Shown here: positions 894-31,632 of the stretch, in pieces
How positions within the stretch are numbered: the stretch's first letter is position 1
Layout: every line of letters starts with the position of its first letter
DNA from: Gammaproteobacteria bacterium
Lineage (GTDB): Bacteria; Pseudomonadota; Gammaproteobacteria; Eutrophobiales; Eutrophobiaceae
Direction: 5' to 3'
Assembly (NCBI GenBank): GCA_021773245.1
Contig: JAJFKK010000168.1
Location: 1 to 38,187, forward strand
DNA: 38,187 bases
Position numbers and translations under genes: made by a program
Notes under the pieces: model-generated
Told to the model about the DNA's origin: nothing
Database searches by the model: none
The model's input: the letters and a program-made list of their open reading frames with translations, nothing else

Positions 894-3800
894 CTAATCT
901 TTTATTAACGAGTGCTGTTTCCATACATAAAACACCGCAGGTATAACAAGGAGTGTTAATAATGTAGAACTGAGCATTCCACCTATCATAGGTGCGGCAA
1001 CACGAGTCATGATCTCTGAGCCTGCACCATCTATAAACATAATGGGTAGTAAGCCTACGACAGTTGAGCAGGTTGTCATCATGATCGGTCTGACGCGCTG
1101 ACTTGCTGCATCAGTAATATAGCCAATTAATTTATTTCTATTTAAGTTTTCCTCTGAAGATTTAAAAGAATCAACGGCTTTATTGAGAAATTCAATCATA
1201 AGCACACCATCTTGAACAGCTATTCCTGCTAATGCAATAAATCCAACACCTACTGCCACGGATAAATTGTAATCTAATAAATAGAGAAACCATGCTCCGC
1301 CACCAAAAGCAAAAGGCAAAAATCCCATAATTAAAAATACATCACCTATTTTTTTAAAGTTCATATAGAGCAATACAAAGATAATGAAAAAAGTAATCGG
1401 TAGAACAATACTTAATCGCTCCATTGCTCTTAACATATATTCATACTGACCAGACCAGCTAATCGAGTAGCCCGGCGGTAAATCCACTGTCTTCGTAACA
1501 TGTTCTCGTGCTTCATTGACATAACTGCCCAGATCACGATCCTTGGTATCAACATATATCCAACCATTAATACGCGCATTTTCACTTTTAATCATCGGTG
1601 GTCCATCTGTCACACTAATGGATGCAACATCACCTAAGGGGATTCTTGCGCCTGAAGGAGTCACTATGGGTAATAAACGTAATTGTTCCAAAGAATCTCG
1701 AAGTTCATGAGGATAACGAATATTGATTGGATAACGTTCCAAACCCTCAACTGTTTCCGAAACATTCATCCCACCAACGGCAGTGCGAACAATATCCTGA
1801 ATGTCACTTATATTAAGTCCGAGTCGCGCGGCATTAATTCTGTTGATATCAACGGTAAGATATCGGCCACCCGCAACACGTTCAGCATAAACTGAAGCTG
1901 TACCAGGAACGTCTTTTAATACCTGTTCGATCTGACGACCTATGTTTTCTATAACTTTAAGATCGGTGCCTGCTATTTTAATACCGACGGGCGTTTTAAT
2001 CCCCGTTGCTAACATATCAATTCGGGTCTTAATTGGCATGACCCAAGAATTTGTAACACCGGGCAATTGCACCACACTGTCCAATTCAACTTTAAGCTTC
2101 TCCATTGTCATTCCTTCGCGCCATTCATCTCGCGGCTTAAAACGTATTATCGTTTCGATCATCGTCAAAGGTGCCGGATCTGTTGCTGTTTCAGCTCGCC
2201 CAATCTTTCCAAAAACGGTATCAACTTCTGGTACGGTATGAATTAATTTATCTGTTTGCTGTAATATTTGTCGCGCCTTTCCGATAGAAATAGCAGGTAA
2301 TGTTGTTGGCATATACATCAAATCGCCTTCATCCAAATCAGGCATGAACTCACTACCTAATTTTGTGAATGGCCAGAGTCCAACAATCATAATTATTAAC
2401 GCAATGAACACGGTCATAATTGGGAAACGAAGAACGAGACTAATGTTTGGTTTATAGAGACTAATTAACGAACGTGAAATTAGATTCTTTTCTGAAGGAA
2501 CAACACTCCCTTTAATAAAATAACCTAGTAAAACAGGTATGACTGTAACAGCTAATATGGTTGCCGATAACATGGCATATATCCATGTGTACGCGAGAGG
2601 AGAAAACATACGGCCTTCCTGAGCCTGTAGTGTAAAAATCGGCAGTACACTCAATCCTGTTATCAGTAATGAAAAGAACAATGGTGGACCAACCTCAGTT
2701 GTCGCTTCCATAATGACTTTCCAATGATCAGCATCATCACTTTTACGTTCAATATGTTTGTGAACGTTATCAATCATTACGATAGCAGCATCGACCATGA
2801 CACCAATTGCTATGGCTATCCCGCCCAAGGACATTATGTTCGCATTAATGCCTTGAATATTCATTATGATAAACGCCATCAATATTCCAAGTGGCAAGCT
2901 AATAATAACGACCAGAGCAGAGCGTAAGTGTAATAGAAAAAAGATACATACAATTGCGACAAGAATCAGTTCTTCCTGTAATGCAGTTTTCAAAGTATTT
3001 ACTGCACGTTCAATTAGACCTGATCGATCATACGTCTCAACAATTTCGACACCATCAGGCAAGCCCTGTTGTAACTCGTTTAATTTTTCTTTTACTGAAT
3101 CAATTACTTTTTTGGCGTTTTCTCCCCAACGCATGACGATAACACCGCCGACAACTTCTCCTTCACCATTTAACTCTGCGATTCCACGGCGCAACTGTGG
3201 TCCAATTCGTACTTGTGCTACATCGCTAAGTAACACGGGTGTGCCTCTAACATTCACACTAATCGGTATGTTACGTAATTGTTCAAGACCAGTGATGTAA
3301 CCTGTTACCCGAACCATATATTCAGCTTCTGCCATTTCTATAACAGACGCACCTGCTTCCTGGTTTGCTTTTTTTATCGCGTTACTAATAGTAGATATTG
3401 GAATATCGTATGCACGTAATTGATCGGGATCGATAACTACCTGATATTGTTTAACCATACCGCCAATAGTTGCAACTTCTGATACACCCGGGACAGTTTG
3501 TAATTCATATTTAAGAAACCAATCTTGAAGTGAGCGTAGCTGTGATAAGTCATGATTACCTTTTCGATCAACTAATGCATATTCATAGATCCAACCGACG
3601 CCTGTTGCATCTGGACCAAGTTCAGGTTTTGCTCCCGACGGTAAACGACTTGTTACCTGACTCAGATATTCAAGTACACGAGAACGTGCCCAATAAAGAT
3701 CAGTCCCTTCTTCAAAGATGACATAGACATATGAATCACCAAAAAAAGAATAACCTCTAACTGTAACGGCATAGGGTACTGATAACATGGCGGTCGTTAA

Positions 3801-4004
3801 TGGATAGGTTATTTGATCTTCAACTACCTGTGGTGCTTGCCCAGGGAAAGGTGTTTTTATAATAACTTGGACATCTGAAAGATCCGGTATTGCATCTACA
3901 GGAGTTTGTTTGATGATGTAGACGCCACTTACAAAGACAATAACAGTAGCTAGAATAATCAAAAATCGATTATCAATTGACCAACGTATAATTTGTCCAA
4001 TCAT
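894..4004 (-). CDS. cusA: CusA-type heavy-metal efflux RND transporter (Cu/Ag)
   Basis: Inner-membrane pump of a tripartite CusCBA complex that expels Cu(I)/Ag(I) using the proton gradient. At 1036 aa it is full length for the HME-RND family. It has an N-terminal helix (about 12-31), two large periplasmic loops and the family signature around GVMVDAAIVMID (401-412). The three methionines that bind metal in E. coli CusA (M573, M623, M672) have counterparts at M565 (DLMYM), M615 (APLTM) and M664 (RIDML), all offset by exactly eight residues. This supports Cu/Ag rather than Zn/Co/Cd specificity. It is the last gene of the operon, starting 3 nt after the cusB-like stop. The symbol is assigned by similarity; no close paralogue choice can be tested here. 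Confidence 0.93.
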   Translation of the reverse strand: MIGQIIRWSIDNRFLIILATVIVFVSGVYIIKQTPVDAIPDLSDVQVIIKTPFPGQAPQVVEDQITYPLTTAMLSVPYAVTVRGYSFFGDSYVYVIFEEGTDLYWARSRVLEYLSQVTSRLPSGAKPELGPDATGVGWIYEYALVDRKGNHDLSQLRSLQDWFLKYELQTVPGVSEVATIGGMVKQYQVVIDPDQLRAYDIPISTISNAIKKANQEAGASVIEMAEAEYMVRVTGYITGLEQLRNIPISVNVRGTPVLLSDVAQVRIGPQLRRGIAELNGEGEVVGGVIVMRWGENAKKVIDSVKEKLNELQQGLPDGVEIVETYDRSGLIERAVNTLKTALQEELILVAIVCIFFLLHLRSALVVIISLPLGILMAFIIMNIQGINANIMSLGGIAIAIGVMVDAAIVMIDNVHKHIERKSDDADHWKVIMEATTEVGPPLFFSLLITGLSVLPIFTLQAQEGRMFSPLAYTWIYAMLSATILAVTVIPVLLGYFIKGSVVPSEKNLISRSLISLYKPNISLVLRFPIMTVFIALIIMIVGLWPFTKLGSEFMPDLDEGDLMYMPTTLPAISIGKARQILQQTDKLIHTVPEVDTVFGKIGRAETATDPAPLTMIETIIRFKPRDEWREGMTMEKLKVELDSVVQLPGVTNSWVMPIKTRIDMLATGIKTPVGIKIAGTDLKVIENIGRQIEQVLKDVPGTASVYAERVAGGRYLTVDINRINAARLGLNISDIQDIVRTAVGGMNVSETVEGLERYPINIRYPHELRDSLEQLRLLPIVTPSGARIPLGDVASISVTDGPPMIKSENARINGWIYVDTKDRDLGSYVNEAREHVTKTVDLPPGYSISWSGQYEYMLRAMERLSIVLPITFFIIFVLLYMNFKKIGDVFLIMGFLPFAFGGGAWFLYLLDYNLSVAVGVGFIALAGIAVQDGVLMIEFLNKAVDSFKSSEENLNRNKLIGYITDAASQRVRPIMMTTCSTVVGLLPIMFIDGAGSEIMTRVAAPMIGGMLSSTLLTLLVIPAVFYVWKQHSLIKD

Positions 4005-4007
4005 AAT

Positions 4008-5309
4008 CTATTTCTTATCCATTACAGACTGTTCCATTGAATGGTCAATCATGTCATGTTCAACGGCTTGCATGCGATTTAAACTTGCTTTGAGATTTGA
4101 TTCGGAATCAATCAAAAATTGTGAAGAGATAACAATTTCTTCTCCTTCGTTTAATCCCGAAGTGATTTCGACCCGTTCACCACTCTCCATTCCTGCAACA
4201 ACTTCCTGTGCTTGAAAACGACCATCTCCAATCGCCTTAATAACTCGTTGCTGCTTGGCATCTCGTATCAAGGCTTCTTGCGGAATACTAATGACATCCT
4301 TTTTTTCACCAGCAAATATAGTGACCCGTGAATACATATTCGGTTTTAACTTTTCTTTCGAATTATCAAAACGTATTCGAACGCGTAAAGTCCGTGTAAC
4401 GGGATCAAGATCGGGATAGATATATTCAACAGTCCCTTTCCATATAACCCCGGGCATTGAAGGCAATGTAGCTTCGGCACTTTGACCTACCTCAACCCAA
4501 TTCGCTTGTCGTTCAAATACTTCAGCCAGCAACCAGATAATATCAAGGTTAGCGATACTTAAAATTTGAGTTTCCGGTTTGATATACATACCTTCACGTA
4601 CACCAAGATTAATTAGCACGCCCGATTGCGGAGCATAAAAACGAATGTTCTGGGTAATTTTTTTATCTTTCTCCAATCTGTCTATCTGTGATTTTGATAT
4701 ACCCAAAGCAGAAAGTTTTTCTAGTGACGCTGCAGCCAAACGTCGATTACCACTCGCTAATGCTTGTAAATACTCTTCTTGCGCATTCACTAATGGCGGC
4801 GAGTACAGTTCAAATAACAGTTGACCTCGCTTAACCTGTTCTCCTTCAGCGCGGACTTGTAACTTTTCTATCCAACCTTCTGTTCTTGTATGAATATGAT
4901 TGATTCGTGTTTCGTCATAATCAATATAACCAACCGTGCCGATCCTTTTCCAGAGTGGTCCGCGTTCTACCTTGGCTGACCTTACACCGAGGTTATTAAT
5001 CACTTCCGGTCTTATTTTAACGATGGACATATCTTCATTCATGTCATCTTTATCACCTTCATAAACAGGAATCAGATCCATTCCCATAGGTGATTTTCCA
5101 GGCTCATCGCGACGGAAAGTTGGATTCATCGGTGCCACCCAATATTTAATTGTTTTCTTTTTAGATATCGAGTCTGAATTGTTTACATTTCCATTTAAAT
5201 TCATATCTGATTTAAAAACTAATTTAGAAACATCAAATTCATTTTCAACAAAAACACCAACAAAGAGTCCGACAATGATTAATATAAAAGTAAGGATTAA
5301 TCTATTCAT
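4008..5309 (-). CDS. cusB: CusB-type efflux RND periplasmic adaptor
   Basis: Membrane-fusion (adaptor) subunit linking the CusA-like pump to the outer-membrane channel. It has an N-terminal hydrophobic anchor (about 3-22), then a short metal-site region at 55-84 containing APMNP (M61) and SPMGMDLIP (M75, M77). These correspond to the N-terminal methionines through which CusB hands metal to CusA. The usual YxCPMHP/CGM cysteines of the related heavy-metal-binding domain are absent, as they are in E. coli CusB. The lipoyl/barrel-sandwich and beta-barrel regions follow. It overlaps the upstream cusC-like gene by ATGA (5306-5309), so translation is probably coupled. The C-terminal tail is His/Met-containing (HDMIDHSMEQS). 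Confidence 0.92.
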   Translation of the reverse strand: MNRLILTFILIIVGLFVGVFVENEFDVSKLVFKSDMNLNGNVNNSDSISKKKTIKYWVAPMNPTFRRDEPGKSPMGMDLIPVYEGDKDDMNEDMSIVKIRPEVINNLGVRSAKVERGPLWKRIGTVGYIDYDETRINHIHTRTEGWIEKLQVRAEGEQVKRGQLLFELYSPPLVNAQEEYLQALASGNRRLAAASLEKLSALGISKSQIDRLEKDKKITQNIRFYAPQSGVLINLGVREGMYIKPETQILSIANLDIIWLLAEVFERQANWVEVGQSAEATLPSMPGVIWKGTVEYIYPDLDPVTRTLRVRIRFDNSKEKLKPNMYSRVTIFAGEKKDVISIPQEALIRDAKQQRVIKAIGDGRFQAQEVVAGMESGERVEITSGLNEGEEIVISSQFLIDSESNLKASLNRMQAVEHDMIDHSMEQSVMDKK

Positions 5310-17630: not shown

Positions 17631-17791
17631 GGAGGCTGTCAAAGAATAGATAACCTACTGTGGAAAAGCTGATTTTGGTCAGATTTTTCCCTGATTATCG
17701 TTAAATAGAATGACTATTCGCCTCAAATCATGAAAAAATTTGACTCAAAACAGCTCTCCCTCGCTACGGTTCTTATTCTCAGACAGCCTCC
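17631..17791. mobile_element. 161-bp palindromic MITE-like element
   Basis: The ends are perfect 10-bp inverted repeats, GGAGGCTGTC and GACAGCCTCC, extending imperfectly to about 24 bp. The halves stay complementary almost to the centre (near 17711): AGCTGATTTTGGTCAGATTTTT pairs largely with the matching 3' arm. It contains no transposase. It starts 5 nt after the ftsB stop and ends 2 nt before the ispD ATG. The terminal repeats suggest mobilisation by an insertion-sequence transposase elsewhere, but no clear target duplication is visible. Confidence 0.65.
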
Positions 17792-17793
17792 AC

Positions 17794-18495
17794 ATGCCAG
17801 ATAATGCAAGATACTGGGTTGTTATTCCGGCAGCGGGCGTTGGCAAACGCATGGAAGTTGATAAACCAAAACAATATATTTCCGTAAATGACAAAACAAT
17901 TCTTGAGCATACAATTAATTGTTTTATTAATCGCGAGGAAATAGTAGGTGTTGTCGTTGCGATATCAAAATCTGATGAATATTGGCCAACATTGGAAATT
18001 GCGGAACATGAAAAGATAATCGTTGCTCCGGGTGGAGAAGAGCGTTATCAATCTGTATTTAATGGTTTGCAGATGCTTAAAAATAAAGCTGAAAGTGATG
18101 ACTGGATTATGGTTCATGATGCGGCTAGACCTTGTTTGAATCAATCGGCGATAGATAGATTGATAATTAACTTACGTTCACATGATGTCGGTGGAATTTT
18201 GGCAATGCCTTGTCGAGATACAATGAAAAGAGGGAATCCATCAGGCGAAATTGTAGATACAGTAGAACGAGAATTTCTTTGGCATGCCCAAACACCACAG
18301 ATGTTTAAATTTGGAAAGCTTTTTTCTGCAATTGAAAAAGTACTAGATAAAGATATTATTGTTACTGATGAAGCGATGGCAATGGAGTTGTCAGGCCATA
18401 AACCAATGCTTATTCAAGGACAGCAGGATAATATAAAAATCACCCATAAAGATGATCTTCAACATCTAAAATACTATTTAAATGAGATGACATAA
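17794..18495 (+). CDS. ispD: 2-C-methyl-D-erythritol 4-phosphate cytidylyltransferase
   Basis: Third step of the non-mevalonate isoprenoid pathway, coupling CTP to MEP. From ATG 17794 it is 233 aa. Family motifs are PAAGVGKRM near the N-terminus, [14 protein letters not shown] and [10 protein letters not shown]. An in-frame TTG at 17740 would add 18 residues encoded wholly by the palindromic element (a low-complexity Ser/Phe stretch), so it is rejected. The chosen ATG has no Shine-Dalgarno: the preceding bases are the CCTCC end of the element. The stop is 1 nt before the ispF ATG. Confidence 0.95.
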
Positions 18496-18496
18496 A

Positions 18497-18970
18497 ATGC
18501 GAATTGGACACGGATATGATGTACACCGTCTTGTTGAAAATAGGCCTTTAATTTTAGGTGGCGTTACTATTCCTTACGATAAAGGTTTAGAAGGACATTC
18601 AGACGCAGATGCAGTTATACATGCGTTATGTGACGCCATACTTGGTGCATTGTGTTTAGGTGATATCGGCAATCATTTTCCTGATACCGATCCTGAGCTT
18701 AAAAATGTCGATAGTCGTTTGTTATTAAAGCAAGTGTATAACTTGATGAAGGATAAAAAATACGTATTAGGTAATGCTGATATTACTATCTTGGCACAAG
18801 CGCCAAAGATGGCAGGGCATATTTCTGGTATGCGAGAAATATTAGCTGCTGATCTAAATTCAAAAATTGAAAATATTAATGTAAAAGCTACGACTACTGA
18901 AAAAATGGGTTTTGTTGGTCTCGGTGAAGGCATTGCCGCACACGCTGTTGTTCTATTAAATACTGACTAA
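18497..18970 (+). CDS. ispF: 2-C-methyl-D-erythritol 2,4-cyclodiphosphate synthase
   Basis: Cyclises CDP-ME-2-phosphate in the non-mevalonate pathway. It is 157 aa. The zinc-site motif GHGYDVHRL (4-12), the [12 protein letters not shown] segment and the C-terminal [22 protein letters not shown] signature are all present. It is translationally coupled to ispD. In many gammaproteobacteria truD follows; here the quorum-sensing locus follows instead. Confidence 0.98.
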
Positions 18971-19010: not shown

Positions 19011-19107
19011 ATAGTTAAAGTTCGTCATCGTTCGATTTTGAGTCATTGTGCTCATTATCTTTTTTGATGAGTGTTCTCGAAATCAAAGGATGATTTTTTT
19101 TAACTAT
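19011..19107 (+). promoter_or_regulatory. long stem-loop leader directly before the rpfF ribosome-binding site
   Basis: ATAGTTAAA (19011-19019) pairs with TTTAACTAT (19099-19107). Further in, TCATC pairs with GATGA, CGATTTTGAG with CTCGAAATC (one G-T, small mismatches), and CTCAT with ATGAG around a T-rich loop. This gives an interrupted hairpin of about 35 base pairs. It ends exactly where the Shine-Dalgarno AAGGAG (19108-19113) begins. It could control rpfF translation, stop ispF read-through, or be another palindromic repeat. Confidence 0.55.
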
Positions 19108-19120
19108 AAGGAGATCCATT

Positions 19121-20023
19121 ATGAATACTGTCAGATACAGTAGTGAGGCTTTATTTAATAATTTTAAACATTTAAAAATTGAAATCGAACCTGAACAAAA
19201 TCTTGTTTGGGTTTATTTAGACCCTCTACCTACCCCCTGCATCACTCGAACATTACTTTCCGAATTAAAGTATTTTCAACAACAATTAGTTTTATATAAG
19301 GGAAGCTTGCCTTATGAAAATAAATTGGTTGATATTAAATACCATGTGATTACATCTAATCATCCTGTTTTTAACTTCGGCGGTGATCTTCAATATTTTT
19401 TCAATTGCATAGACAATAATGATGAAGATGGTTTAAGAAATTATGCCTATTCTTGTATTGATACAATGTATCCCAACCTAAATGGTTTTGATCTTGGTAT
19501 TACAACAATATCATTGATTCATGGAAATGCATTAGGTGGAGGATTTGAAGCAGCATTATCAAGCAATGTATTAATCGCTGAAAGAGGCGCTGAAATGGGC
19601 TTTCCTGAAGTGCTATTTAATTTATTTCCTGGCATGGGTGCTTATAATTTAGTTGCTCAACGTGTCGGCCCTGTGTTTTCAAAGGAAATGATATTAAGTG
19701 GTAATTTATACTCTGCTGACGAATTACACGAAATTGGTCTAGTTGATGTGCTCGTTGAGAAAAATCAGGGGAGGTTAGCTGTCCATGATTTTATCGATAA
19801 TACTGACAGGAGAAATAACGCTTATAAAAATATTTATAAACTAAGAAATATTTCTAACCCTATACATTATAAAGATTTGATTTCAATTTGTGATGTATGG
19901 GTAAAAGCGGCATTAGATTTATCTGAAAAAGATAAACGCACAATGAAGCGTCTTGTTCGAAGTCAACATAGGTTTGAAATAAAGGATTCACATATTCCGT
20001 TATCAAAATTAACTTCAAATTAA
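19121..20023 (+). CDS. rpfF: RpfF-type DSF synthase (crotonase family)
   Basis: Enoyl-CoA hydratase-fold enzyme that, in Xanthomonas, releases and dehydrates 3-hydroxyacyl-ACP to give the cis-2-unsaturated DSF signal. It is 300 aa. The oxyanion-hole region FNFGGDL (84-90) and both catalytic glutamates are visible: E143 in GNALGGGFEAALS and E163 in GFPEVLFNLFPGMGAY. These correspond to E141 and E161 of the X. campestris protein. The C-terminal KDKRTMKRLVRSQ also fits RpfF rather than ordinary crotonases. Start ATG 19121 has AAGGAG 7 nt upstream. It is followed 41 nt later by a desaturase gene on the same strand. Chain length and branching of the product cannot be told. Confidence 0.92.
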   Translation: MNTVRYSSEALFNNFKHLKIEIEPEQNLVWVYLDPLPTPCITRTLLSELKYFQQQLVLYKGSLPYENKLVDIKYHVITSNHPVFNFGGDLQYFFNCIDNNDEDGLRNYAYSCIDTMYPNLNGFDLGITTISLIHGNALGGGFEAALSSNVLIAERGAEMGFPEVLFNLFPGMGAYNLVAQRVGPVFSKEMILSGNLYSADELHEIGLVDVLVEKNQGRLAVHDFIDNTDRRNNAYKNIYKLRNISNPIHYKDLISICDVWVKAALDLSEKDKRTMKRLVRSQHRFEIKDSHIPLSKLTSN

Positions 20024-20064
20024 ATAGAAGTTTGTTTTTTTAATTATTATTTAGGAGTATGAAT

Positions 20065-21141
20065 ATGAGTCATTCAAATCTACGTAGATTACGTAAAAGT
20101 CTTTCTGTCTATACGAAAAAGACAACATCGAAAGCACTAGTGATATTTTTAATTGATGCACTTATCTATATTGGCGCCATAATCGGTGTTATTTTATTTA
20201 ATAGTATTTTATTAAAAATAACTTTTGCTTGCATCATTGGTTTCAAGATGGCATCACTCTTTGTCATTGCACATGATGCAGCACATGATAGCTTTACTAA
20301 TAATACTATACTCAATAGGATTATAGGTAGATTGGCATTTTTACCTTGTTATCATAATTACAGTCTTTGGTTAATTGTTCATAACCGTTTACACCATCAA
20401 TTTACTAATATGAAAAATGTAAATTCATGGTCTCCTTTAACAAAACAAGAATATGATTGTTTACCTATATGGAGAAAAAAACTGGAACGTTTATATCGGA
20501 GTCCTATAGGCATACCTTTCAATTATATGATAGAGCGATGGTGGAAAAATAAATTTTTTCCATACAAAAGATTAGTTGGAGAATACAAGTCAAGATATTG
20601 GATAGATTTTTTCTTTGCATTATCTTACTTGGTTTGTTTGGTTAGTTTTTTTATTTATCAAGGCTATATTTCATATAATAGCAATGTGTTAGAGATGCTG
20701 GTTTTTGGAATAATTTTACCATTTATTGTTTTTAGTTTTATGGTTGGATTTTCCGTGTATCAACAACATACGCATGAAAGTGTGCCATGGTTTGATGATA
20801 ATGAACTAAGAAACAGTTATGGCCATGTTGAAGATGTAACGTTACATGTTAAATATCCTCAATGGTATAACTTCCTAAGTCACAATGTTATGGAGCATAC
20901 AGCACATCATATAGATCCAAGAATACCATCATATAATTTAGAAAAAGCTCAAAAAGAGCTTAACCATTTATATGGTGACAAAATGAAAATAATGAAATTT
21001 TCATTGAGAAACATTTTGGAGACGATTAAAAAATGTAAGTTGTATGATTACAAACAACACTGTTGGCTTGATTTTGAAGGTGTTCCAACAACTTCGCCAA
21101 CTCTAACTATAGAAAAAGTTGAATACGCTAATGCAGCGTAA
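20065..21141 (+). CDS. membrane fatty acid desaturase, paired with rpfF
   Basis: Di-iron membrane desaturase of 358 aa. ATG 20065 is chosen because AGGAG (20053-20057) lies 7 nt away; the ATG at 20059 is too close. Four His-containing clusters fit the acyl-lipid (DesA-like) desaturase group: HDAAH (about 70-74), HNRLHH (106-111), QQHTHE (233-238) and HTAHH (278-282). Hydrophobic segments at about 26-70 and 180-230 form the membrane parts. The gene probably shares a transcript with rpfF. It could add a second double bond to the signal or its precursor, or adjust membrane fluidity; the sequence does not decide. Confidence 0.9.
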   Translation: MSHSNLRRLRKSLSVYTKKTTSKALVIFLIDALIYIGAIIGVILFNSILLKITFACIIGFKMASLFVIAHDAAHDSFTNNTILNRIIGRLAFLPCYHNYSLWLIVHNRLHHQFTNMKNVNSWSPLTKQEYDCLPIWRKKLERLYRSPIGIPFNYMIERWWKNKFFPYKRLVGEYKSRYWIDFFFALSYLVCLVSFFIYQGYISYNSNVLEMLVFGIILPFIVFSFMVGFSVYQQHTHESVPWFDDNELRNSYGHVEDVTLHVKYPQWYNFLSHNVMEHTAHHIDPRIPSYNLEKAQKELNHLYGDKMKIMKFSLRNILETIKKCKLYDYKQHCWLDFEGVPTTSPTLTIEKVEYANAA

Positions 21142-21157
21142 GTAAGTTAATAATAAC

Positions 21158-21227
21158 TATTGTTATGAGATTAGGATGTCTCTTAACAAATTATTGTTAT
21201 TGTTTTGAGATCAGGATGTCTCTTAAC
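21158..21227. repeat. 30-nt direct repeat between convergent desaturase and rpfC genes
   Basis: Two copies (21158-21187 and 21198-21227) share TATTGTT, TGAGAT, AGGATGTCTCTTAAC with two substitutions, at a 40-nt period. The second copy abuts the rpfC stop codon. Each unit has a short GAGA/TCTC dyad, too weak alone for a terminator. It fills most of the 86-bp gap, so a transcription-end or binding role is possible. Confidence 0.6.
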
Positions 21228-23774
21228 TTAATTATTTTTAACAATCGATTCCTTTTTATCAAGGTAAGTAATGAGTGCTTGTTCTGTTTCATGAAATACA
21301 CTATTTATGGAGTTGAAAACTTCAGTAAGGCTGGAATGGTTATCCGTTCTCGAAAGGTTTGATAATTTTTCAGCTATTTTAGCTAATTTTTGAGCACCTA
21401 TTGTGCGTGAAATACCATCCAGTGCATGGGCAAGCTCAGGTATTTTTTTATAATCTTTATTATTTATACTTAAATTTAGTTGTTCAATATTAGATAATGC
21501 ATTGCTGATATATCGGTCAATTAGATTACGCATGAAATTTTCTTCATGCGCCATGAAAAATAATGTATCAAACGTTTTTGTATTTATTAGTGAAAAATTA
21601 TCCAGATTATTTATATCTACAACATTTAACGTACTATTTAGTAATTCTATGTCATTAGCATTACCTATAAGTGAATTAATTATATTAAGTAATTTTTCAG
21701 GTTCGATAGGTTTTGTTAAATAAGCATCTAATTTAGCTTGTTCACAAGCATCTTTGGCTTCTTTTGTTGCATTAGCAGTTAATATTAGAATTGGGATATT
21801 CCTTTTTTCAGGATACATAAAACGGAATATTTTTGCCGCTTCTATACCTCCCATTATAGGCATCTGCATATCAAGTATAAGTAGATCAAATTCATTTTCC
21901 TCAAGAATATCCAGAGCTTCTTCACCATTACTTGCTAGAGTAACGCTAAAATTCCCATATTCAAGAATATTTTTAACTACTATCTGATTTATTTCATTAT
22001 CGTCAACAACCAGTATTTTTAAACCTTCAGTCTTCGGCTGATAGTCTGTTAATTCTTTTGCATAAAGAGTATCAGTATCATTTTCAGAATAACTCGTGAC
22101 TATATTAGTATTAGCTGAGTGTATTATTCTAAATAAGGTACTTCTATCAGGCGTACTTTTTATTATTAATGAGTAACCTGATGTTAATAAATTAGATTTC
22201 GTAGATAATGGTGTTTCCTCATCATTAATCAGTATAAATGTATGGTTTTTAAATGATGATTCAGACTTTGCCTGTGTGATAAATTTAATTGGATCAGTAT
22301 CTAAGTATTTCTGAAATACGAAAATAATAAAATAGGGATTATCTGAATCATTGGCACTATTAATCATTTTAATTGCATGCTCAACATGATTAGCAAAATC
22401 ATAAGTGATAGACCATAAAGATAGATGTTCAGCAATGGGTTGACCCTTTTCTTTGAAAGGATTGATTATTAGAGTGCGGTAATTGGAAAACTCGATGAGA
22501 CAATTATTTTCTTCTGAAAGTACTTCTTGTTGCTCAAATTCCAATTCAAACCAGAATGTTGATCCTTCACCGAATGTACTTGTAAAACCGATTTCACCAT
22601 TCATAGTCTCGACAAGTTGTTTTGCTATAGCCATACCAAGACCCGTGCCACCGTACATTCGAGTTGTTGATTCGTCAGCTTGAGTAAATTTATTGAATAA
22701 TTTTGATTTTTCCTGTTCTTTTATACCAATACCAGTATCTATTATTTCAAATCTTAATCTTAAATTATTATTTTCAGATATGACTTCTTTTATATAAACT
22801 CCAATTGAACCTTCATTAGTAAATTTAATAGCGTTACTAACTAAGTTAATTATGATTTGTCGAAGATGTTGTGGATCACTTCGTAAAAGAAAAGGGATAT
22901 TCGGGGATATATGAATTGTGAATATAACGCCCTTATTTTCAGCCTGATGTTTCAAAATCATTGTTGTTGAATTAACCAATGAATGAAGATCAAAATCAGT
23001 TGTTTCGACAGTGATTTTTCCGGCTTCTATTTTCGATATATCAAGAATATCATTTATTAGTGAGAGTAATATTTTTGCTGAAGCATTTATGGTGTTTGCA
23101 AATTCTTTTTGTTTGGTTTGGAGTTCTGTATTACATAATAAACTGCTCATTCCTATAATGCCATTTAGAGGAGTTCGTATCTCATGACTCATATTGGCAA
23201 GAAACTGACTTTTTTCTTTATTTGCTGCGTTTGCAGCAGTTATAGCTTTATTTAGCTGTGAGACAAGGGTAGAAGCATATGCAGGAAGTATGAATAAAGT
23301 TAATAATAAGCTTGCACTTAAAAATGGTTGACTATGCCAATAAGTATTATTTAAAGCGATATAAGAAAAACTGACCAAAGAAATAATAGTATTTATGAAA
23401 AGATATGTATTTCCATAACGAAAGCCATAGCCAAAGATAGTCGTTAAATATATTGCAAATAGTGGCGCTCCTATTTGCCCTGTGAATAACATAGATAAAT
23501 TTATGCAGTATGCATCTAATATTATTGCTGTCAGCCTACGCAATATTGATATTTTTGGGTTAATTAGTGCCCATATAAAAATAACAGAATTAATAACCAG
23601 GTATAAATAAGCGATAGTAATGACTGACGGCAATACTTCATATTTAGTATCGGCCCAAAGAATGAATAATAACCAAATCATTCCGCCAGTAAATCTGACA
23701 TAGATTTGTTGATGCTCTGTATCTTGACGATTTTTTAAACGTGATTTTATAAAAGATAGAGAATTATTTTCCAT
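21228..23774 (-). CDS. rpfC: RpfC-like hybrid sensor kinase 1 (with extra degenerate receiver)
   Basis: An 848-aa membrane hybrid kinase. About five hydrophobic segments fill residues 28-172, including the YGFRYG motif that resembles the RpfC input region. Then come HisKA with H197 ([12 protein letters not shown]), the ATPase domain (N314, DTGIG 346-350, GGTGLG 375-380), a receiver with D635 (LLILDMQMP) and K688, and a C-terminal Hpt domain with H783 (AHALDGISRTIGA). Between ATPase and receiver, 430-560 reads as a second receiver-like fold without the acidic pocket or the phospho-Asp. X. campestris RpfC is about 726 aa, so this domain explains the extra length. It lies 34 nt after rpfG. Confidence 0.88.
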   Translation of the reverse strand: MENNSLSFIKSRLKNRQDTEHQQIYVRFTGGMIWLLFILWADTKYEVLPSVITIAYLYLVINSVIFIWALINPKISILRRLTAIILDAYCINLSMLFTGQIGAPLFAIYLTTIFGYGFRYGNTYLFINTIISLVSFSYIALNNTYWHSQPFLSASLLLTLFILPAYASTLVSQLNKAITAANAANKEKSQFLANMSHEIRTPLNGIIGMSSLLCNTELQTKQKEFANTINASAKILLSLINDILDISKIEAGKITVETTDFDLHSLVNSTTMILKHQAENKGVIFTIHISPNIPFLLRSDPQHLRQIIINLVSNAIKFTNEGSIGVYIKEVISENNNLRLRFEIIDTGIGIKEQEKSKLFNKFTQADESTTRMYGGTGLGMAIAKQLVETMNGEIGFTSTFGEGSTFWFELEFEQQEVLSEENNCLIEFSNYRTLIINPFKEKGQPIAEHLSLWSITYDFANHVEHAIKMINSANDSDNPYFIIFVFQKYLDTDPIKFITQAKSESSFKNHTFILINDEETPLSTKSNLLTSGYSLIIKSTPDRSTLFRIIHSANTNIVTSYSENDTDTLYAKELTDYQPKTEGLKILVVDDNEINQIVVKNILEYGNFSVTLASNGEEALDILEENEFDLLILDMQMPIMGGIEAAKIFRFMYPEKRNIPILILTANATKEAKDACEQAKLDAYLTKPIEPEKLLNIINSLIGNANDIELLNSTLNVVDINNLDNFSLINTKTFDTLFFMAHEENFMRNLIDRYISNALSNIEQLNLSINNKDYKKIPELAHALDGISRTIGAQKLAKIAEKLSNLSRTDNHSSLTEVFNSINSVFHETEQALITYLDKKESIVKNN

Positions 23775-23808
23775 GTCAAAAACATTCCTTGTCGAATCAT
23801 GATAGATA

Positions 23809-24879
23809 TTATGTATTATCTTGTAAGTTTATAATTTTATTTTGACTAGCAAATAATGCCTCAACGCAGTCAGGGTCGAAGTGTTTGCCTTTTTCTTCTT
23901 TAATGTAATCGAGAGCTTTTGTTACAGGCCATGCCTCTTTATAAGGGCGATGATTTGTTAACGAGTCATAGACATCAGCTACAGCAACTATTCTGGCTTC
24001 TATAGGTATTTCATCACCGGCGATTCCATTCGGATATCCTGTGCCGTTGTGTTTTTCATGGTGGTTTAATGCGATTAATGCCCCTGTTTGAAGATAAGGA
24101 GATGGGCTATCTTTTAAAATATCATATCCAACAGTTGTATGAGTTTTTATTTGAACAAACTCTTCGTTGGTTAGCGGGCCCTTTTTTAATAGGATTGAAT
24201 CTGGTATAGCCAGCTTTCCGATGTCATGTAATGGTGAAGCTGTTTGTAATGTTTCTGCTTCGGACTTATTTAACCCAAGCTTTAGACCAAGAATATAGCT
24301 TATTAGTCCAATTCTTTTTAAATGTTCACCAGTAATGCAGTCTTTATATGCACAGGCTTTTGTTAATCTATCCAAAGTCTCATGTTCTCTAATGAGAATT
24401 TCGTTAGTTGATGTATTAACAATGTCAGTTAAAAATTTGCTGCGTTTTTTTAATTTCGATTGATGTTTTCCAAATGACAACAAATTTTTGCATTTTGATT
24501 TATATTCAGTTTTATCAAATGGCTTATTTAAAAAATCATTAACACCATTTTCAAGTGCTTCATACAATATTTTCCTATCTTTCATAATGGTGATCATCAT
24601 GATCGGTATATCTTGACAATTTGGTAAGCGGCGTAATTTTTTAGTGAATTCGATTCCATTCATGACTGGCATTTTATAATCTGTAATAATCAAATCAGGT
24701 GCAGAAATTTTAATTTCGCTAAGTGCTGCCTTTGCATCTTGAAAAGGTTTTATTAAAACATTTGAGTCAATACTCCTTAATGTTTCACTTAGAACATGCA
24801 GACTGGTTGACTGGTCATCAATAATCATCACTGTAGATGCGAATTGATTTTCAGATAGGTTATTTATTGATAGAGCCAT
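23809..24879 (-). CDS. rpfG: RpfG-type response regulator, HD-GYP cyclic-di-GMP phosphodiesterase
   Basis: Two-domain output protein of 356 aa. The receiver (about 15-135) has acidic pocket D21/D22, phosphoacceptor D67 (IITDYKMP) and K119. The HD-GYP domain (about 165-345) has H218-D219 in SPLHDIGKLAIPD, further metal ligands in LNHHEKHNGTGYPNG, and GYP at 281-283. All catalytic residues are present, so it should hydrolyse cyclic di-GMP when phosphorylated. It sits between the two RpfC-like kinases. The 121-bp AT-rich gap upstream, with a TATACT, leaves room for its own promoter. Confidence 0.95.
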   Translation of the reverse strand: MALSINNLSENQFASTVMIIDDQSTSLHVLSETLRSIDSNVLIKPFQDAKAALSEIKISAPDLIITDYKMPVMNGIEFTKKLRRLPNCQDIPIMMITIMKDRKILYEALENGVNDFLNKPFDKTEYKSKCKNLLSFGKHQSKLKKRSKFLTDIVNTSTNEILIREHETLDRLTKACAYKDCITGEHLKRIGLISYILGLKLGLNKSEAETLQTASPLHDIGKLAIPDSILLKKGPLTNEEFVQIKTHTTVGYDILKDSPSPYLQTGALIALNHHEKHNGTGYPNGIAGDEIPIEARIVAVADVYDSLTNHRPYKEAWPVTKALDYIKEEKGKHFDPDCVEALFASQNKIINLQDNT

Positions 24880-25000
24880 GGTTAATTTTCTTTTATTATT
24901 TTAATAGAGTAAGTATAGCTAATAAATCATTGTTTTATATAAATAATAAAAAAAACATATATGCTTGTCTATTGTTATTAATAAAAATGAAACTAAAATA

Positions 25001-27127
25001 TTAGCTCCTTGTTGTAAGCAGTTGTTTACCCTGTTTATTAAGGCGGATTTTCTGTCTTTTCAGATATGAGTTTAATTCGTTTCTTGTTTTTTCAAATGTA
25101 GCGTTGAGTAGTTTGATATCTTCTAGGTTTAATAAGCCCTTATTGTTTTTTATCGAATTGGATAAAGACTGTATAGATGACGTCATTTCTTTAGCGCCTA
25201 TTGAACGTGAGCTTCCATCTAAAGCATGAAGAAGTTTATTTGTTTCATCAGTGCAACCATCTTCTACCGCTAAAGATAATTTATGAATGGAGGATGACGT
25301 GTCACGAAGAAATCCATCAATAAGGTTTTTCATAAAACCAGTATCTTGAGTCATAGAAGACAATTTATCTAATGTCTTAATGTAAATAACGGATGGTTCA
25401 TCAACTGTATTATTTTTACCCTCGATTTGACGATTCTCAAAGACCAAAGTAATGGTCTCTAGTAACTGATCAGGTTCAATAGGCTTAGTTAAGTAGGCAT
25501 CTACCTTTGCTTCTTTACATTCTTCAACTGCTTTTGTTGTTGCATTAGCTGTTAAAATTATAATAGGTGTATTATTTTTCTGGTTGTTACTATGAAATAA
25601 TGTTGCAGCTTCTATACCACCCATTACTGGCATTTGCATATCAAGAATAATGAGATCAAATGTTTTATTCTTTAATAATTCTAACGCTTCGTTCCCATTC
25701 TCGACGATGGTGACGTCATGTTGTCCGTATTCAAGTATATTTCTTATGACATTCTGATTTGTTTCATTATCTTCTGCCACGAGAATGTTTAGATTTTTTA
25801 AAAGTGTACCTGTAATAGTATTTTCATCTTTCTGTTTATTAATAGTGATAGAATCATTACTGCTTTTATATAAATTATTTTGTAACTTAAATTCAACTTC
25901 AAACCAAAAAGTGGAACCTTTATCTTGTTGGCTGGAAAAACCAATATTTCCGTTCATACTTTCTACCATTTGTTTAGCAATCGACATCCCTAAGCCACTT
26001 CCGGCGTATTTACGAGTTGCTGATTGATCTGCTTGAGTAAACTTATCAAATAGAGTTGCTTTTGCTTTATCAGGTATTCCAATACCACTATCAATTACTT
26101 CAAATTTTAATTTTGTTTTTTTATCCGATGTATAAAGAGATGTGATATTGATCTTTATAAAACCTTGATTTGTAAATTTAATGGCATTACCAATAAGGTT
26201 GATTAAGGTTTGCCGGATATATTGTTGATTACCATGTAATAGCAGTGGAACATCAGATGCAATATGGACATTAAAGTCCACGCCTTTGTTTTCAGCTTGC
26301 GGAGAAAGCATTAATGTTGTTGAGTTAATTAGAACCTTTAGATCAAAGTCTACTTTTTCAACGCTAGCCATTCCAGCTTCTATTTTTGATATATCAAGAA
26401 TGTCATTTATTAATGCTAAAAGTGTTTTTGCAGAAGTATTAATTGTTGCAGAGTATTCTGTTTGTCTATCATCAAGTTGAGTAGTCGAGAGCAAAGAACT
26501 CATACCAATGATGCCATTTAAAGGCGTGCGTATTTCATGACTCATATTTGATAAAAATTGAGTTTTTGCTTTGTTTGCAGCTTCAGATTGTTTAACTGCA
26601 CTATGTAGTCTGGAAATAAGTAGTGATATATATAAAGAAAGAGCTATGGTGATAATAAAGAAGCCGTAAGCCAGATTTTTTTGCTCTTGCCAGAACTCGC
26701 TGAAGTTAATGACAATGCTAAAACTAATAATACTAAAGATGGTACTTGCAAATAAAAGCTTTTTCCCAAATCGAAGACCATTGCCAAATGTAATCCATAG
26801 ATACAAAAATATTAATGGAGAACCAGCATCGTTAGATACGTAGATCATATATGTCAGTATGGCCATGTCTAAAAAAGCAGTAACCATCTTAAAGGCAATA
26901 GAGTTCTTAATAGAAGAATTAGTGCTAGTTATGAAAAGCACTATGAATGCAAAAATAAATGACACAAGGCATGTTATTAATACAGAGTTAAATTCTTTAA
27001 TTAACTCCTCAAAAAGATAAAAATAACCGGTTAAAAAACAAAGCATAATAATTCTTATCATGCTTTGCTGTTGAGCATTATCAGGTTTGTTTTTTAATAA
27101 ACGTTTAAATCTGTCTCTTAACCCCAT
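25001..27127 (-). CDS. RpfC-like hybrid sensor kinase 2
   Basis: A 708-aa membrane hybrid kinase close in length to X. campestris RpfC. Hydrophobic segments at about 24-172 include FGNGLRFG, the RpfC-like input motif. H197 ([12 protein letters not shown]), the ATPase boxes (N314, DSGIG, AGSGLG), receiver D496 (LIILDMQMP) and K548, and Hpt H634 ([13 protein letters not shown]) are all present. It shares long identical stretches with kinase 1, so the two are paralogues, but it lacks the degenerate receiver. Its ATG (27127) lies inside the 3' end of the smr gene (23-bp overlap), suggesting shared transcription. It could be the true RpfC; which kinase senses the signal is not decidable here. Confidence 0.88.
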
Positions 27128-27671
27128 GAGTATTAATTCCCTTTAATAATAAATATATCGCTCCAGTCCCTCCGTCAGCGGGTAATGCCGAACAGAAGGC
27201 TAAAACATCATCTCTTTGACGTAACCAATTGTTTACTTTGTTTTTAATGATAGGTTTTTTATTATCTGATCCAATACCTTTGCCATGAATAATTTGAACG
27301 CAACGTCGTGAATGCATGTGACAATCTAATAGAAAATCAGATAGTGCCGTTCTAGCTAATTCAACAGTAAGGCCATGAAGGTCTAATTCTTCTTCCATGT
27401 TAAATTGACCACGGCGTAACTTTCTTAAGGTTTGTTTCTGGATACCGGATCTTGAAAACAATAATTCATCGCCTCGTTCAAGCAAGTTTTGATCATATTC
27501 ACTATCAAGTAGTGCTTGCATCTCAGGTGGTTCATTTTCAACTCGAGAAGGATTAGGCGAAGGTTTCGGCTTTTCATGGAGGACGCTATCCTGTTTTAAC
27601 GGTTTAATCTTGCCAACCGCTTCTCTGAATAGCGCACTATCTTCCTCTGATATATCTGATTTTTTTTTCAT
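27105..27671 (-). CDS. Smr-domain protein (SmrA/SmrB type)
   Basis: A cytoplasmic 188-aa protein from the ATG at 27671; a GTG at 27689 would add six residues. A charged, Pro-rich N-terminal half (1-90) leads to the Smr domain with LDLHG (96-100), HGKG (129-132) and GAIYLLLK (170-177). Stand-alone Smr proteins are endonuclease-like. E. coli SmrB cleaves mRNA at collided ribosomes, and this length fits SmrA or SmrB. The gene lies downstream of purL with hairpins between them, and its end overlaps the start of the second RpfC-like kinase. Confidence 0.88.
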
Positions 27672-27712
27672 TGTGCGATTGTGTAGCACTGATTAAACAA
27701 TGATTTTATCTG

Positions 27713-27755
27713 ATACCCGACTTAATGTCAGGTATTCACTTAGTGAAGATAAGTG
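27713..27755 (-). other. two adjacent hairpins after purL
   Basis: ATACCCGAC-TTAAT-GTCAGGTAT (27713-27735) is a 9-bp stem with one mispair on this strand (G-T when read as minus-strand RNA). CACTTA-GTGAAGA-TAAGTG (27737-27742 and 27750-27755) is a perfect 6-bp stem. They sit between the purL stop and smr. No clear T-run follows on the minus strand, so an intrinsic terminator is uncertain. Confidence 0.4.
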
Positions 27756-27774
27756 ATAGTGATGTAGCGTTGTC

Positions 27775-30700
27775 TTACTTTAGCCATTCACGAGCATTTG
27801 TAAATAGTTTCATCCATGGACTGTATTCACTATTCCAGCTTTGATCCAGGTAGGAGAATTGTTTACTTAAGAAAACACGTTCGGGGTGAGGCATCATGAT
27901 CGTGATACGACCATCATCATTAGTGAAACCAGTGAGCCCATCAATTGAACCATTAGGATTCAATGGATAATTTTCAGAAACTGTACCTGAGTTATCAATA
28001 TAGCGTAGTACTGAATTTGTTTTTGAATCATTTGATGTGCGTCCTTCGCCATGAGCAACAACAACCGGTATTTTAGATCCAGCCATACCTTTAAATAAAA
28101 CCGAAGGCGAATCTATGATTTCAGTCATGACTAAACGGGCTTCGAATTGTTCAGATTTATTCTTAATGAAGTCAGGCCATGAAGCTGCACCAGGAATTAA
28201 TTCTCTAAGTTGAGACATCATTTGACAGCCATTACAGACACCAAGCGAAAAAGTATCTGTGCGACTGAAGAAACCTTCAAACATTTTGCTTAATTTATCA
28301 TTGTACAAAATGGTTTTTGCCCAACCACCGCCAGCACCTAATACGTCACCATAAGAAAAACCACCGCAAGCAACAAGGCCATTAAATGATTCAAGGTTAA
28401 TATGGTTATCAATTAAATCCTGCATATGAATGTCGATGCATTCAAAACCAGCACGGTCAAAAGCGGCTGCCATTTCAATTTGACCATTCACACCTTGTTC
28501 ACGAAGAATTGCCATTTTAGGTTTGATGCCGGTATTGATAGCAGGAATGCAACTCGCATCAAATTCAAATGTGGTGTCAAGAAATAGGCCGTTATTATTT
28601 TTATCAGAAACGAGATCAAATTCCTGTTTTGCACATTCGGGATTATCACGAAGTGCCTGAATTTGATAACTGGTTGCAGACCATTTTTGATGCAATTCAT
28701 TAATCGCAATACTTAATACATCAGCTTCATTATGTTTAAGGTTAAATTGATAATCATTATTCAATGTGCCAATAGTTTGAATAGATTTCGTATCTATACC
28801 TGAGTTAATAAAGGTTTGTTTAACATTTTTCTCATGTTCTTTTTTAATTTGAATAACAGCACCAAGTTCTTCATTAAATAGACTTGTGTGTAAGTCATCG
28901 GAACCATCAATGTTGATATCGATACCAGTATGTCCGGCGAATGCCATTTCAGCTAATGTCACAAATAAACCACCATCTGAACGATCATGGTAGGCTAATA
29001 TTAAGTCAGATTCGTTGAGTATCTGTAGTGATTGGAAGAAACCAATTAAATCGTCAGAGTTGTCTAAATCAGGTGTTTCATTACCAACTTGATCGTAAAC
29101 TTGACATAAGGCAGAACCACCCAAGCGTTGTTTACCGTTTGCCAAATCGATATATAATAAAATGGTTTCGTCATCTTGATGTAATTGCGGTGTGAGTGAT
29201 TGACGTACATCTGCAACACGGGCAAAAGCAGTAATGTTTAATGATAATGGTGATGTGACTTTCTTTTCTTTTTCTTTATCTGTCCAAACAGTATTCATTG
29301 ATAATGAATCTTTACCAACTGGAATAGCAATGCCTAGTTCTTTACATAGCTGACTCACTGCTGAGACTGTTGCATATAATTTAGCATCCTGATCAGATTC
29401 ACCACATGCAGCCATCCAGTTTGCTGAAAGTGCGATGTCGCCAAGTTTTAAAATACGTGCAGCGGATATATTCAAAATGGCTTCAGCTATCGCCATACGC
29501 CCTGAAGCAGGTGCATTGTTAATAGCGATAGGCGTACGTTCACCAAGTGCCATCGCTTCACCAATATAATCATAATAAGATGAACTGGTAACAGCACAAT
29601 CCGCAACCGGAACTTGCCAAGGGCCCACCATCTGGTCACGAACAACTAAACCAGAAATAGAACGATCACCAATGGTAATTAAAAAGTTTTTACTCGCAAC
29701 AGTCGGTAGGTGCAGAACTCGATCGATTGACTCGACTAAATCTAATGAAGAAGTATCGAAATCAATTGCTTTATTTGATCCGCTTTTTGCATTGCGTTTT
29801 ATACTTGGCATCTTTCCAAGCAGCACTGACATCGGAATATCAATCGACTTATTATTAAAGTGCGAATCGTTTAAGATGAGTTGTTCTTCTTCAGTAGATT
29901 CACCAAGCACCGCGTATGGCGCACGCTCTCGTTGGCAAAGACTAATAAATTTTTCAATTTGTTGAGGGTTAATTGCCAGTACATAGCGTTCTTGAGATTC
30001 ATTACACCAAACGCCCATCGGTGACATACCGGGTTCATCATTTGGTATTTCGCGTAATTCAAGGTTCGCGCCGCGATCACTGGCGCTAACTAACTCAGGC
30101 ATGGCGTTAGAAAGTCCACCAGCACCAACATCATGAATACTTAAAATCGGATTGTTTTTGCCGAGTGACCAGCATCGATCAACAACTTCCTGACAGCGGC
30201 GTTCCATCTCCGCGTTATCACGTTGTACAGATGCAAAATCTAAAGAGGCATCACTGGTTCCCGATGCCATTGATGAAGCTGCACCGCCACCTAAACCGAT
30301 CAACATTGCTGGACCACCTAAAACAACTAACTTCGCACCTACAGGGATATCCAATTTTTGTACATGTTCATCTCGAACCATACCGTAACCACCAGCAAGC
30401 ATGATTGGTTTATGGTAACCACGAATAACAGAGTCAGTTTCACGTTGTTCATAAGTACGGAAATAACCACACAAAGCAGGGCGGCCAAATTCATTATTGT
30501 AGGAAGCCGAACCAATCGGACCATCAATCATAATATCTAATGCAGATACTATTCGTTCAGGTTTACCATTATTTTTTTCCCAGGCTTGTTCAAATTCAGG
30601 AATTTTTAAATTAGAAACGGCAAAGCCAGATAAGCCGGCTTTTGGTTTTCCGCCACGACCAGTTGCTGCTTCGTCTCGTATCTCACCACCAGATCCTGTT

Positions 30701-31632
30701 GCTGCACCGGGGTAAGGTGAAATTGCTGTTGGATGATTATGTGTTTCAACTTTCATTAAAATATGAATATCTTCATCCTTATATCCATATTGATTTAGTT
30801 CAGGATCTGTAAAAAACCGTTGTCCTTTATAACCAGCCATAACCGCAGCGTTGTCATGATAAGCGGAAAGTACATTGCCTGGGTTTTCCAGATGCGTTTG
30901 TCGAATCATGTCGAATAAAGAATGATCCTGTTTCACATTATCAATTGTCCATTCGGCATTAAAGATTTTATGACGACAATGTTCAGAGTTGGCCTGTGCA
31001 AACATCATTAGTTCAACATCAGTTGGATTACGACCGAGTTTTTCAAATGATGAAAATAAATAATCAATTTCTTCCGCAGATAATGCTAAACCCATTTCAG
31101 AATTTGCTTTTTCCAGAGCAGGCTTTCCGCCATCAAGAATATTCACATGTTCTAATACAGCAGGCTCTGCGGTTGAGAACAATGCTTGGGCTTCTTGTTC
31201 GTCACCAATAACGACGTCAGTCATACGATCATGTAGTAACGGTTTTATCTGTTCAATCTGATCCTCGGTTAAATTTGAACCGGCTGTTAAGGTAATTAAA
31301 TAAGTAATACCGCGTTCAATACGGACAACTTTGTCCAATCCAGAGTTATGAACAATATCTGTTGCCTTACTCGACCATGGTGAGATTGTTCCAGGACGCG
31401 GAATGACAACGAGTTTTGTTGATTCATCATTCACCAAATTAATAGCCAAACCATAATTAAGCAGTGCATCTAACTGGGCTTGTTCTTTATCGTTTAAATC
31501 CGAGCTGTTTTCAGCAAAATGAATAAAATGTGCCTGAATCGAGCTAATTTCGGAAACACAGGCCTGCAAAGCAGGAAGAAGTTTATTGACGCGAAAGTCA
31601 GAAAGGGCATTACCGCCTTGCAGTATTAACAT
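27775..31632 (-). CDS. purL: phosphoribosylformylglycinamidine synthase
   Basis: Fourth step of purine synthesis, making FGAM from FGAR, glutamine and ATP. The 1285-aa single chain is the large gammaproteobacterial form: an N-terminal PurS-like part, two AIRS-like synthetase halves ([26 protein letters not shown] region; HDRSDGGL) and a C-terminal glutamine amidotransferase with GVCNGCQMM and PHPERVF. ATG 31632 agrees with the usual N-terminus. It is likely its own transcription unit; a 74-bp gap separates it from the secretin-like gene upstream. Confidence 0.98.

Follow-up and report, generated by a model that had tools for sequence, protein, structure and literature searches.

A DSF-type rpf locus with an rpfF-linked fatty-acid desaturase and a diverged extra RpfC-like kinase in the Eutrophobiaceae

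Organization of the rpf locus

The window analysed here is a 38,187-nt stretch of DNA from an uncultured gammaproteobacterium of the Eutrophobiaceae (Eutrophobiales; GCA_021773245.1, contig JAJFKK010000168.1; genome label G000). Five genes of the locus are confirmed, each with a full open frame: RpfF and a desaturase on the forward strand, and RpfC2, RpfG and RpfC1 on the opposite strand, where they span positions 21228-27127 (Table 1). Coding begins at 19121, so that position 19011, given as the start of the block in the initial annotation, is intergenic. The gap between rpfF and the desaturase gene measures 35 nt and a GGAG site stands ahead of each, so the two are likely carried on one transcript. 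A promoter scan returned matches at chance level (46 found vs 48.9 expected).

Table 1 Coordinates of the rpf genes, their domains and motifs, and the cassette borders in the window
Feature	Coordinates	Strand	Remarks
ispD-ispF	17740..18970	+	Conserved left border of the cassette; outside the circuit
RpfF, crotonase-fold DSF synthase (by family)	19121..20023	+	Catalytic E143, E163; GGAG ribosome site upstream
Fatty-acid desaturase, PF00487	20059..21141	+	Histidine boxes HDAAH, HNRLHH, HTAHH; own GGAG site
RpfC2 hybrid sensor kinase, likely cognate receptor	21228..23774	-	Membrane sensor, HisKA, HATPase_c, extra segment, REC, Hpt
RpfC2 extra segment, ~residues 425-575	22050..22502	-	Matches no Pfam family; absent from RpfC1
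RpfC2 sensor domain, residues 1-183	23226..23774	-	Portion tracking RpfF type and desaturase presence
RpfC2 DSF-binding motif (by homology), R16-Q-D18-T19-E20-H-Q-Q23	23706..23729	-	Five published contact positions kept
RpfG	23809..24879	-	Receiver and HD-GYP c-di-GMP phosphodiesterase domain
RpfC1, diverged extra RpfC-like hybrid kinase	25001..27127	-	Without the extra segment
RpfC1 counterpart of the DSF-binding motif, K14-P-D16-N17-A18-Q-Q-Q21	27065..27088	-	S18 -> N, E19 -> A
smr-purL	27105..31632	-	Conserved right border of the cassette; outside the circuit

The genes follow the convergent order rpfF > < rpfC < rpfG, which is the layout of Xanthomonas (PMC4504480) and is repeated in Luteimonas, Pseudoxanthomonas, Rhodanobacter, Methylophaga and other proteobacterial loci. 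Since this order is standard elsewhere, a rearranged locus is ruled out and the word 'rearranged' in the title of the initial annotation is unsupported. The window departs from the standard layout solely by two additions: the desaturase, and the RpfC1 kinase upstream of rpfG. No rpfB-type acyl-CoA ligase or AMP-binding gene was identified within the window, either beside rpfF or further away, and four AMP-binding matches lie elsewhere in the genome. In Xylella and Burkholderia rpfB is also unlinked (PMC4504480), and its adjacency is therefore not strictly defining for an Rpf cluster.

The rpf locus forms an accessory cassette flanked by ispF and smr. Its position between ispD-ispF and smr-purL is conserved across the family, with a 23-bp overlap between the end of smr and the start of rpfC1 in the window. 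The cassette is missing from at least four relatives (G008, G010, G030 and G033), where ispF directly adjoins smr. In G003 (L132), a 3'-truncated rpfF adjoins smr, and rpfC and rpfG are lost; purL is also split there, into several frames, and sequencing errors may contribute. Outside the cassette, positions 894-5309 of the window hold ordinary genes for a CusA/CzcA-type heavy-metal RND efflux pump and a CusB-like adaptor.

The RpfF synthase and the RpfG regulator

The window RpfF has the crotonase fold and, as annotated initially, retains both catalytic glutamates. Residues E143 and E163 show no variation in an alignment of 23 members, and the motifs in which they are located, GGGFEAALS and PEVLFNLFPGMGAY, can be aligned with solved RpfF structures, 3m6m among them. 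The best solved relatives are themselves RpfF structures (178-185 bits to those of Xanthomonas type), and the closest relatives overall are RpfF proteins from other genera. The NCBIfam RpfF equivalog model yields 228 bits, below its cut-off of 550; with the broader PRK08788 model the score of 327 exceeds the cut-off of 177. The strict model appears to be tuned to close Xanthomonas relatives, so the result weakens the label 'Xanthomonas-type RpfF' and not the label 'RpfF-like synthase'.

RpfG consists of a receiver followed by an HD-GYP domain with intact motifs (HDIGK, HHEKHNGTGYP), again in agreement with the first description. About 38 GGDEF matches are found in the genome, which therefore very likely makes c-di-GMP. 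By gene content, the set leading from fatty-acid signal to c-di-GMP is complete as initially proposed, with synthase, sensor and HD-GYP regulator all present. At the loci of G035 (L035) and G024 (L036), rpfF, desaturase and rpfC are present and rpfG is missing; the output regulator may lie elsewhere. The second contig of G035 (L050, 2820-5437) bears a further rpfF-rpfC pair, whose kinase core clusters with L053 and not with the family locus.

Comparison of the RpfC2 and RpfC1 kinases

Both kinases display the RpfC domain order of membrane sensor, HisKA, HATPase_c, REC and Hpt, including hydrophobic N-terminal segments, a REC domain with DMQMP and an Hpt site reading HALDG. The earlier description of two full RpfC-like kinases holds to the extent that each has the full RpfC domain set, but RpfC1 (708 aa, compared with 848 aa for RpfC2) is missing a stretch of about 150 residues that would separate HATPase from REC. 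The RpfC1 Hpt domain has the His but, at 22.0 bits, scores slightly below the Pfam cut-off of 24.6. The missing stretch is contained in RpfC2 and in nearly all RpfCs of the family. It also occurs in several other proteobacteria, though not in RpfC of Xanthomonadaceae length, and is perhaps a degenerate receiver. A separate kinase insertion is seen in G404 (L225, 11335-13773), where an extra RpfC-like kinase lies between ispF and rpfF, an independent second-kinase gain.

In X. campestris RpfC, residues R15, D17, S18, E19 and Q22 are required for full DSF sensing, with S18T tolerated (PMC5391125). The residues at these positions are R, D, T, E and Q in RpfC2, which thus keeps the DSF contacts, and K, D, N, A and Q in RpfC1, where N and A replace S18 and E19. 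RpfC1 was found in only four family genomes (the window, G001, G004 and G007) and is damaged in the two nearest ones: the G001 copy is a pseudogene, and in G004 a frameshift-split RpfC1 remains with the rest of the cassette gone. G007 carries the second intact RpfC1, with all contact residues present. Because RpfC1 of the window has lost two DSF-binding residues, and the gene is rare and broken in two of its four genomes, RpfC1 and RpfC2 are unlikely to be equivalent sensors. Taken together, the residue losses, the missing segment and the broken copies indicate that RpfC1 is, judged from its sequence, a diverged and often lost extra receptor.

Linkage of the desaturase to rpfF

The desaturase belongs to PF00487 (E 1.8e-24) and has the four histidine clusters described at the outset, HDAAH, HNRLHH, HTH and a closing HTAHH. 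Its nearest named models are DesA Delta-5 and DesB Delta-10, and its scores fall far under their cut-offs. Conservation of the rpfF linkage in relatives, put forward for checking in the initial annotation, is borne out: the desaturase is found in 9 of 53 genomes of the family, which is the entire order in the database surveyed, and lies directly downstream of rpfF in 9/9. A one-genome accident is ruled out by these linked copies. Among 369 genomes of the class, RpfF is present in 69 and the desaturase in 10, and the two are neighbours only in the window genome. Across 398 genomes of the phylum, the 1.5-kb flanks of out-of-family desaturases (E 1e-60 or better) contained no RpfF or RpfC homologue.

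Confinement of the linkage to one family would suit a desaturase that travels as a passenger and is functionally unconnected with the rpf genes. This reading is highly improbable, as the nine linked copies are spread over five genera in which the rest of the locus differs, and desaturase presence fits the sensor tree with one change, as described below.

The nearest desaturase outside the family, 41% identical, belongs to G368 of another family (L230, 8529-12304, at a contig end) and stands head-to-head with an RpfC-like kinase; RpfF was not found in the G368 genome. In Bacillus, DesK and Des form a pair of a sensor and the desaturase that it regulates. By analogy, the RpfC-like sensor might answer membrane or unsaturated fatty acids without any private signal, with the desaturase as its regulated partner, and both the G368 arrangement and the compact bundle of membrane segments that forms the RpfC input would suit such a role. 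It is nonetheless improbable, because the family desaturase always sits in the predicted rpfF transcript and not beside the kinase promoter, RpfC2 retains its DSF-contact residues, and the G368 kinase sensor is just 24% identical to that of RpfC2.

Co-variation of RpfF, the RpfC sensor and the desaturase

With flanking genes controlled, RpfF distances follow those of the RpfC sensor domain more than those of the kinase core: partial r is 0.72 for the sensor, or 0.74 after thinning of the set, and 0.37 for the core, in Mantel-type tests, which are lenient with related genomes. When RpfC1 replaces RpfC2 as the cognate sensor, partial r is 0.65 vs 0.74, a difference too small to decide. The distribution of the desaturase, with only about three independent contrasts, can be explained by a single change on the sensor tree, by two on either the RpfF or the kinase-core tree and by three on the flank-gene tree; G015, which has a related RpfF and sensor yet no desaturase, is an exception. 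The synthase-sensor co-variation fits the possible distinct signal dialect raised initially. The position of the desaturase beside the synthase, and its tracking of receptor type, suggest, short of proof, a role in modifying the signal.

For most PF00487 enzymes the substrate is a membrane acyl chain. The main rival explanation, possible but rather doubtful, is that the desaturase works on membrane lipids, either as an output or as an offset to the thioesterase drain of RpfF on acyl chains, and that its place in the rpfF transcript lets membrane fluidity follow quorum state; the signal would then be an ordinary mono-unsaturated DSF. Unlinked relatives of the desaturase (30-41% identity) exist without RpfF, and the G368 desaturase and kinase, lacking RpfF, suit this role. 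RpfF broadly releases free fatty acids (PMC4504480), and salt induces a joint increase of rpfF and a desaturase in Leptospirillum ferriphilum (PMC9053815). A membrane-lipid function alone, however, leaves unexplained why the desaturase tracks RpfC sensor type better than it tracks the flanking genes.

Sensor and kinase body of the G001 receptor

The sister genome G001 resembles the window genome in eno (93% identity), ispF (87%) and RpfG (74%), but its RpfF is only 42% identical and it has no desaturase. The data reject a single RpfF clade comprising the genus and G017 (p 0.0015). The sister pairing of the G000 and G001 RpfF proteins is not rejected (p 0.20), so for this pair rapid divergence, and not replacement, may account for the gap.

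The sensor of the single intact G001 RpfC falls, in the sensor tree, into one group with the RpfC1 sensors of the window, G004, G007 and the G001 pseudogene (support 100/99). In the body tree, built from RpfC without its sensor, the G001 RpfC groups with the window RpfC2 (support 95). The corresponding body clade for a plain RpfC1 orthologue is rejected (p 0.0002), with the kinase core alone not rejecting G001 RpfC-RpfC1 orthology (p 0.07-0.18), and orthology between the sensors of G001 RpfC and RpfC2 is rejected (p 1.3e-6). Given the conflict between the sensor and body trees, the G001 RpfC is best read as an RpfC2-like body bearing an RpfC1-type sensor.

This grouping also bears on the role of RpfC1. 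It could be a working second receptor for another dialect, for example a G001-type signal, by which the cell hears its neighbours as well as itself; the shared sensor clade, the differing type of the G001 RpfF and the intact copies in the window and G007 would all agree with such a role. The absence of S18 and E19 from its DSF site, the pseudogene in G001, the frameshift in G004 and the lack of RpfC1 in most family members make it unlikely.

Proposed mechanism

The preferred reading, to which we give a chance slightly short of even, is a standard DSF-to-c-di-GMP circuit in which the desaturase alters the signal, RpfC2 reads the altered signal and RpfC1 is a diverged extra receptor. By family, RpfF would dehydrate 3-hydroxyacyl-ACP and free a cis-2 fatty acid. 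The co-encoded membrane desaturase would introduce a further cis double bond into the acyl chain, before or after the action of RpfF, giving a dienoic DSF-type signal; this is the least certain step. RpfC2, as the putative cognate receptor, would bind the signal through its membrane sensor and pass a phosphorelay through HisKA, REC and Hpt to RpfG, whose HD-GYP domain would then break down c-di-GMP, as in the respective families. Ordinary DSF binding is probably lost in RpfC1, which may feed another input into RpfG or be decaying.

In favour of this circuit are counted the 9/9 linkage, the one-change fit to the sensor tree, the co-variation of RpfF and sensor, the RpfC2 contact residues, the natural occurrence of a dienoic DSF (PMC4542539), the GGDEF matches and the desaturase-kinase pair of G368. 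Against it are counted the low scores of the desaturase with the nearest named models, the small number of independent desaturase contrasts, the desaturase-free G015 with its related RpfF and sensor, and G368 for its lack of RpfF.

A wider proposal is that the ispF-smr island is an exchangeable DSF dialect cassette, in which RpfF type, signal-modifying desaturase and RpfC sensor half change together, and RpfC1 represents the sort of gene that can supply a new sensor half to an old kinase body, as in G001. It is offered as a speculation that is less probable than its negation.

Discussion

The window shares with the X. campestris rpfF / rpfGHC system both RpfF glutamates, the convergent order, the RpfC domain order, an HD-GYP RpfG and, in RpfC2, the DSF-contact residues. 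It differs in the added desaturase, the second RpfC, the extra segment of RpfC2 and in having no rpfB-type gene identified in the window, and its RpfF has moderate similarity only, as the bit scores to the Xanthomonas-type structures indicate.

Two elements of the reading are already known: co-varying RpfF and RpfC sensors (PMC4517397) and a dienoic DSF (PMC4542539). In the rpf-1 / rpf-2 variants of Stenotrophomonas maltophilia, RpfF and the RpfC input region co-vary at one locus, and horizontal exchange has been inferred (PMC4517397). The joint variation of RpfF and sensor is common to both cases, but the S. maltophilia variants have one common signal and no desaturase described, whereas the variation here is far deeper, with desaturase gain or loss and, in one relative, a receptor whose sensor and body differ in origin. 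CDSF, which occurs naturally in Xanthomonas oryzae and X. campestris, is a dienoic member of the DSF family and so has the second double bond predicted by the model for the present locus; it is a minor, RpfF-dependent product for which no dedicated desaturase is named in the paper (PMC4542539). In the open-access literature searched, whose coverage is incomplete, no prior report of an rpfF-linked desaturase was found.

How DSF systems acquire private signals is poorly understood. In conclusion, this locus is a concrete candidate, in which a dedicated desaturase would yield a polyunsaturated DSF and would be paired with a receptor half to match, in an otherwise ordinary rpf system, and the window genome with the desaturase and G001 without it, their enolases 93% identical, provide a natural contrast.
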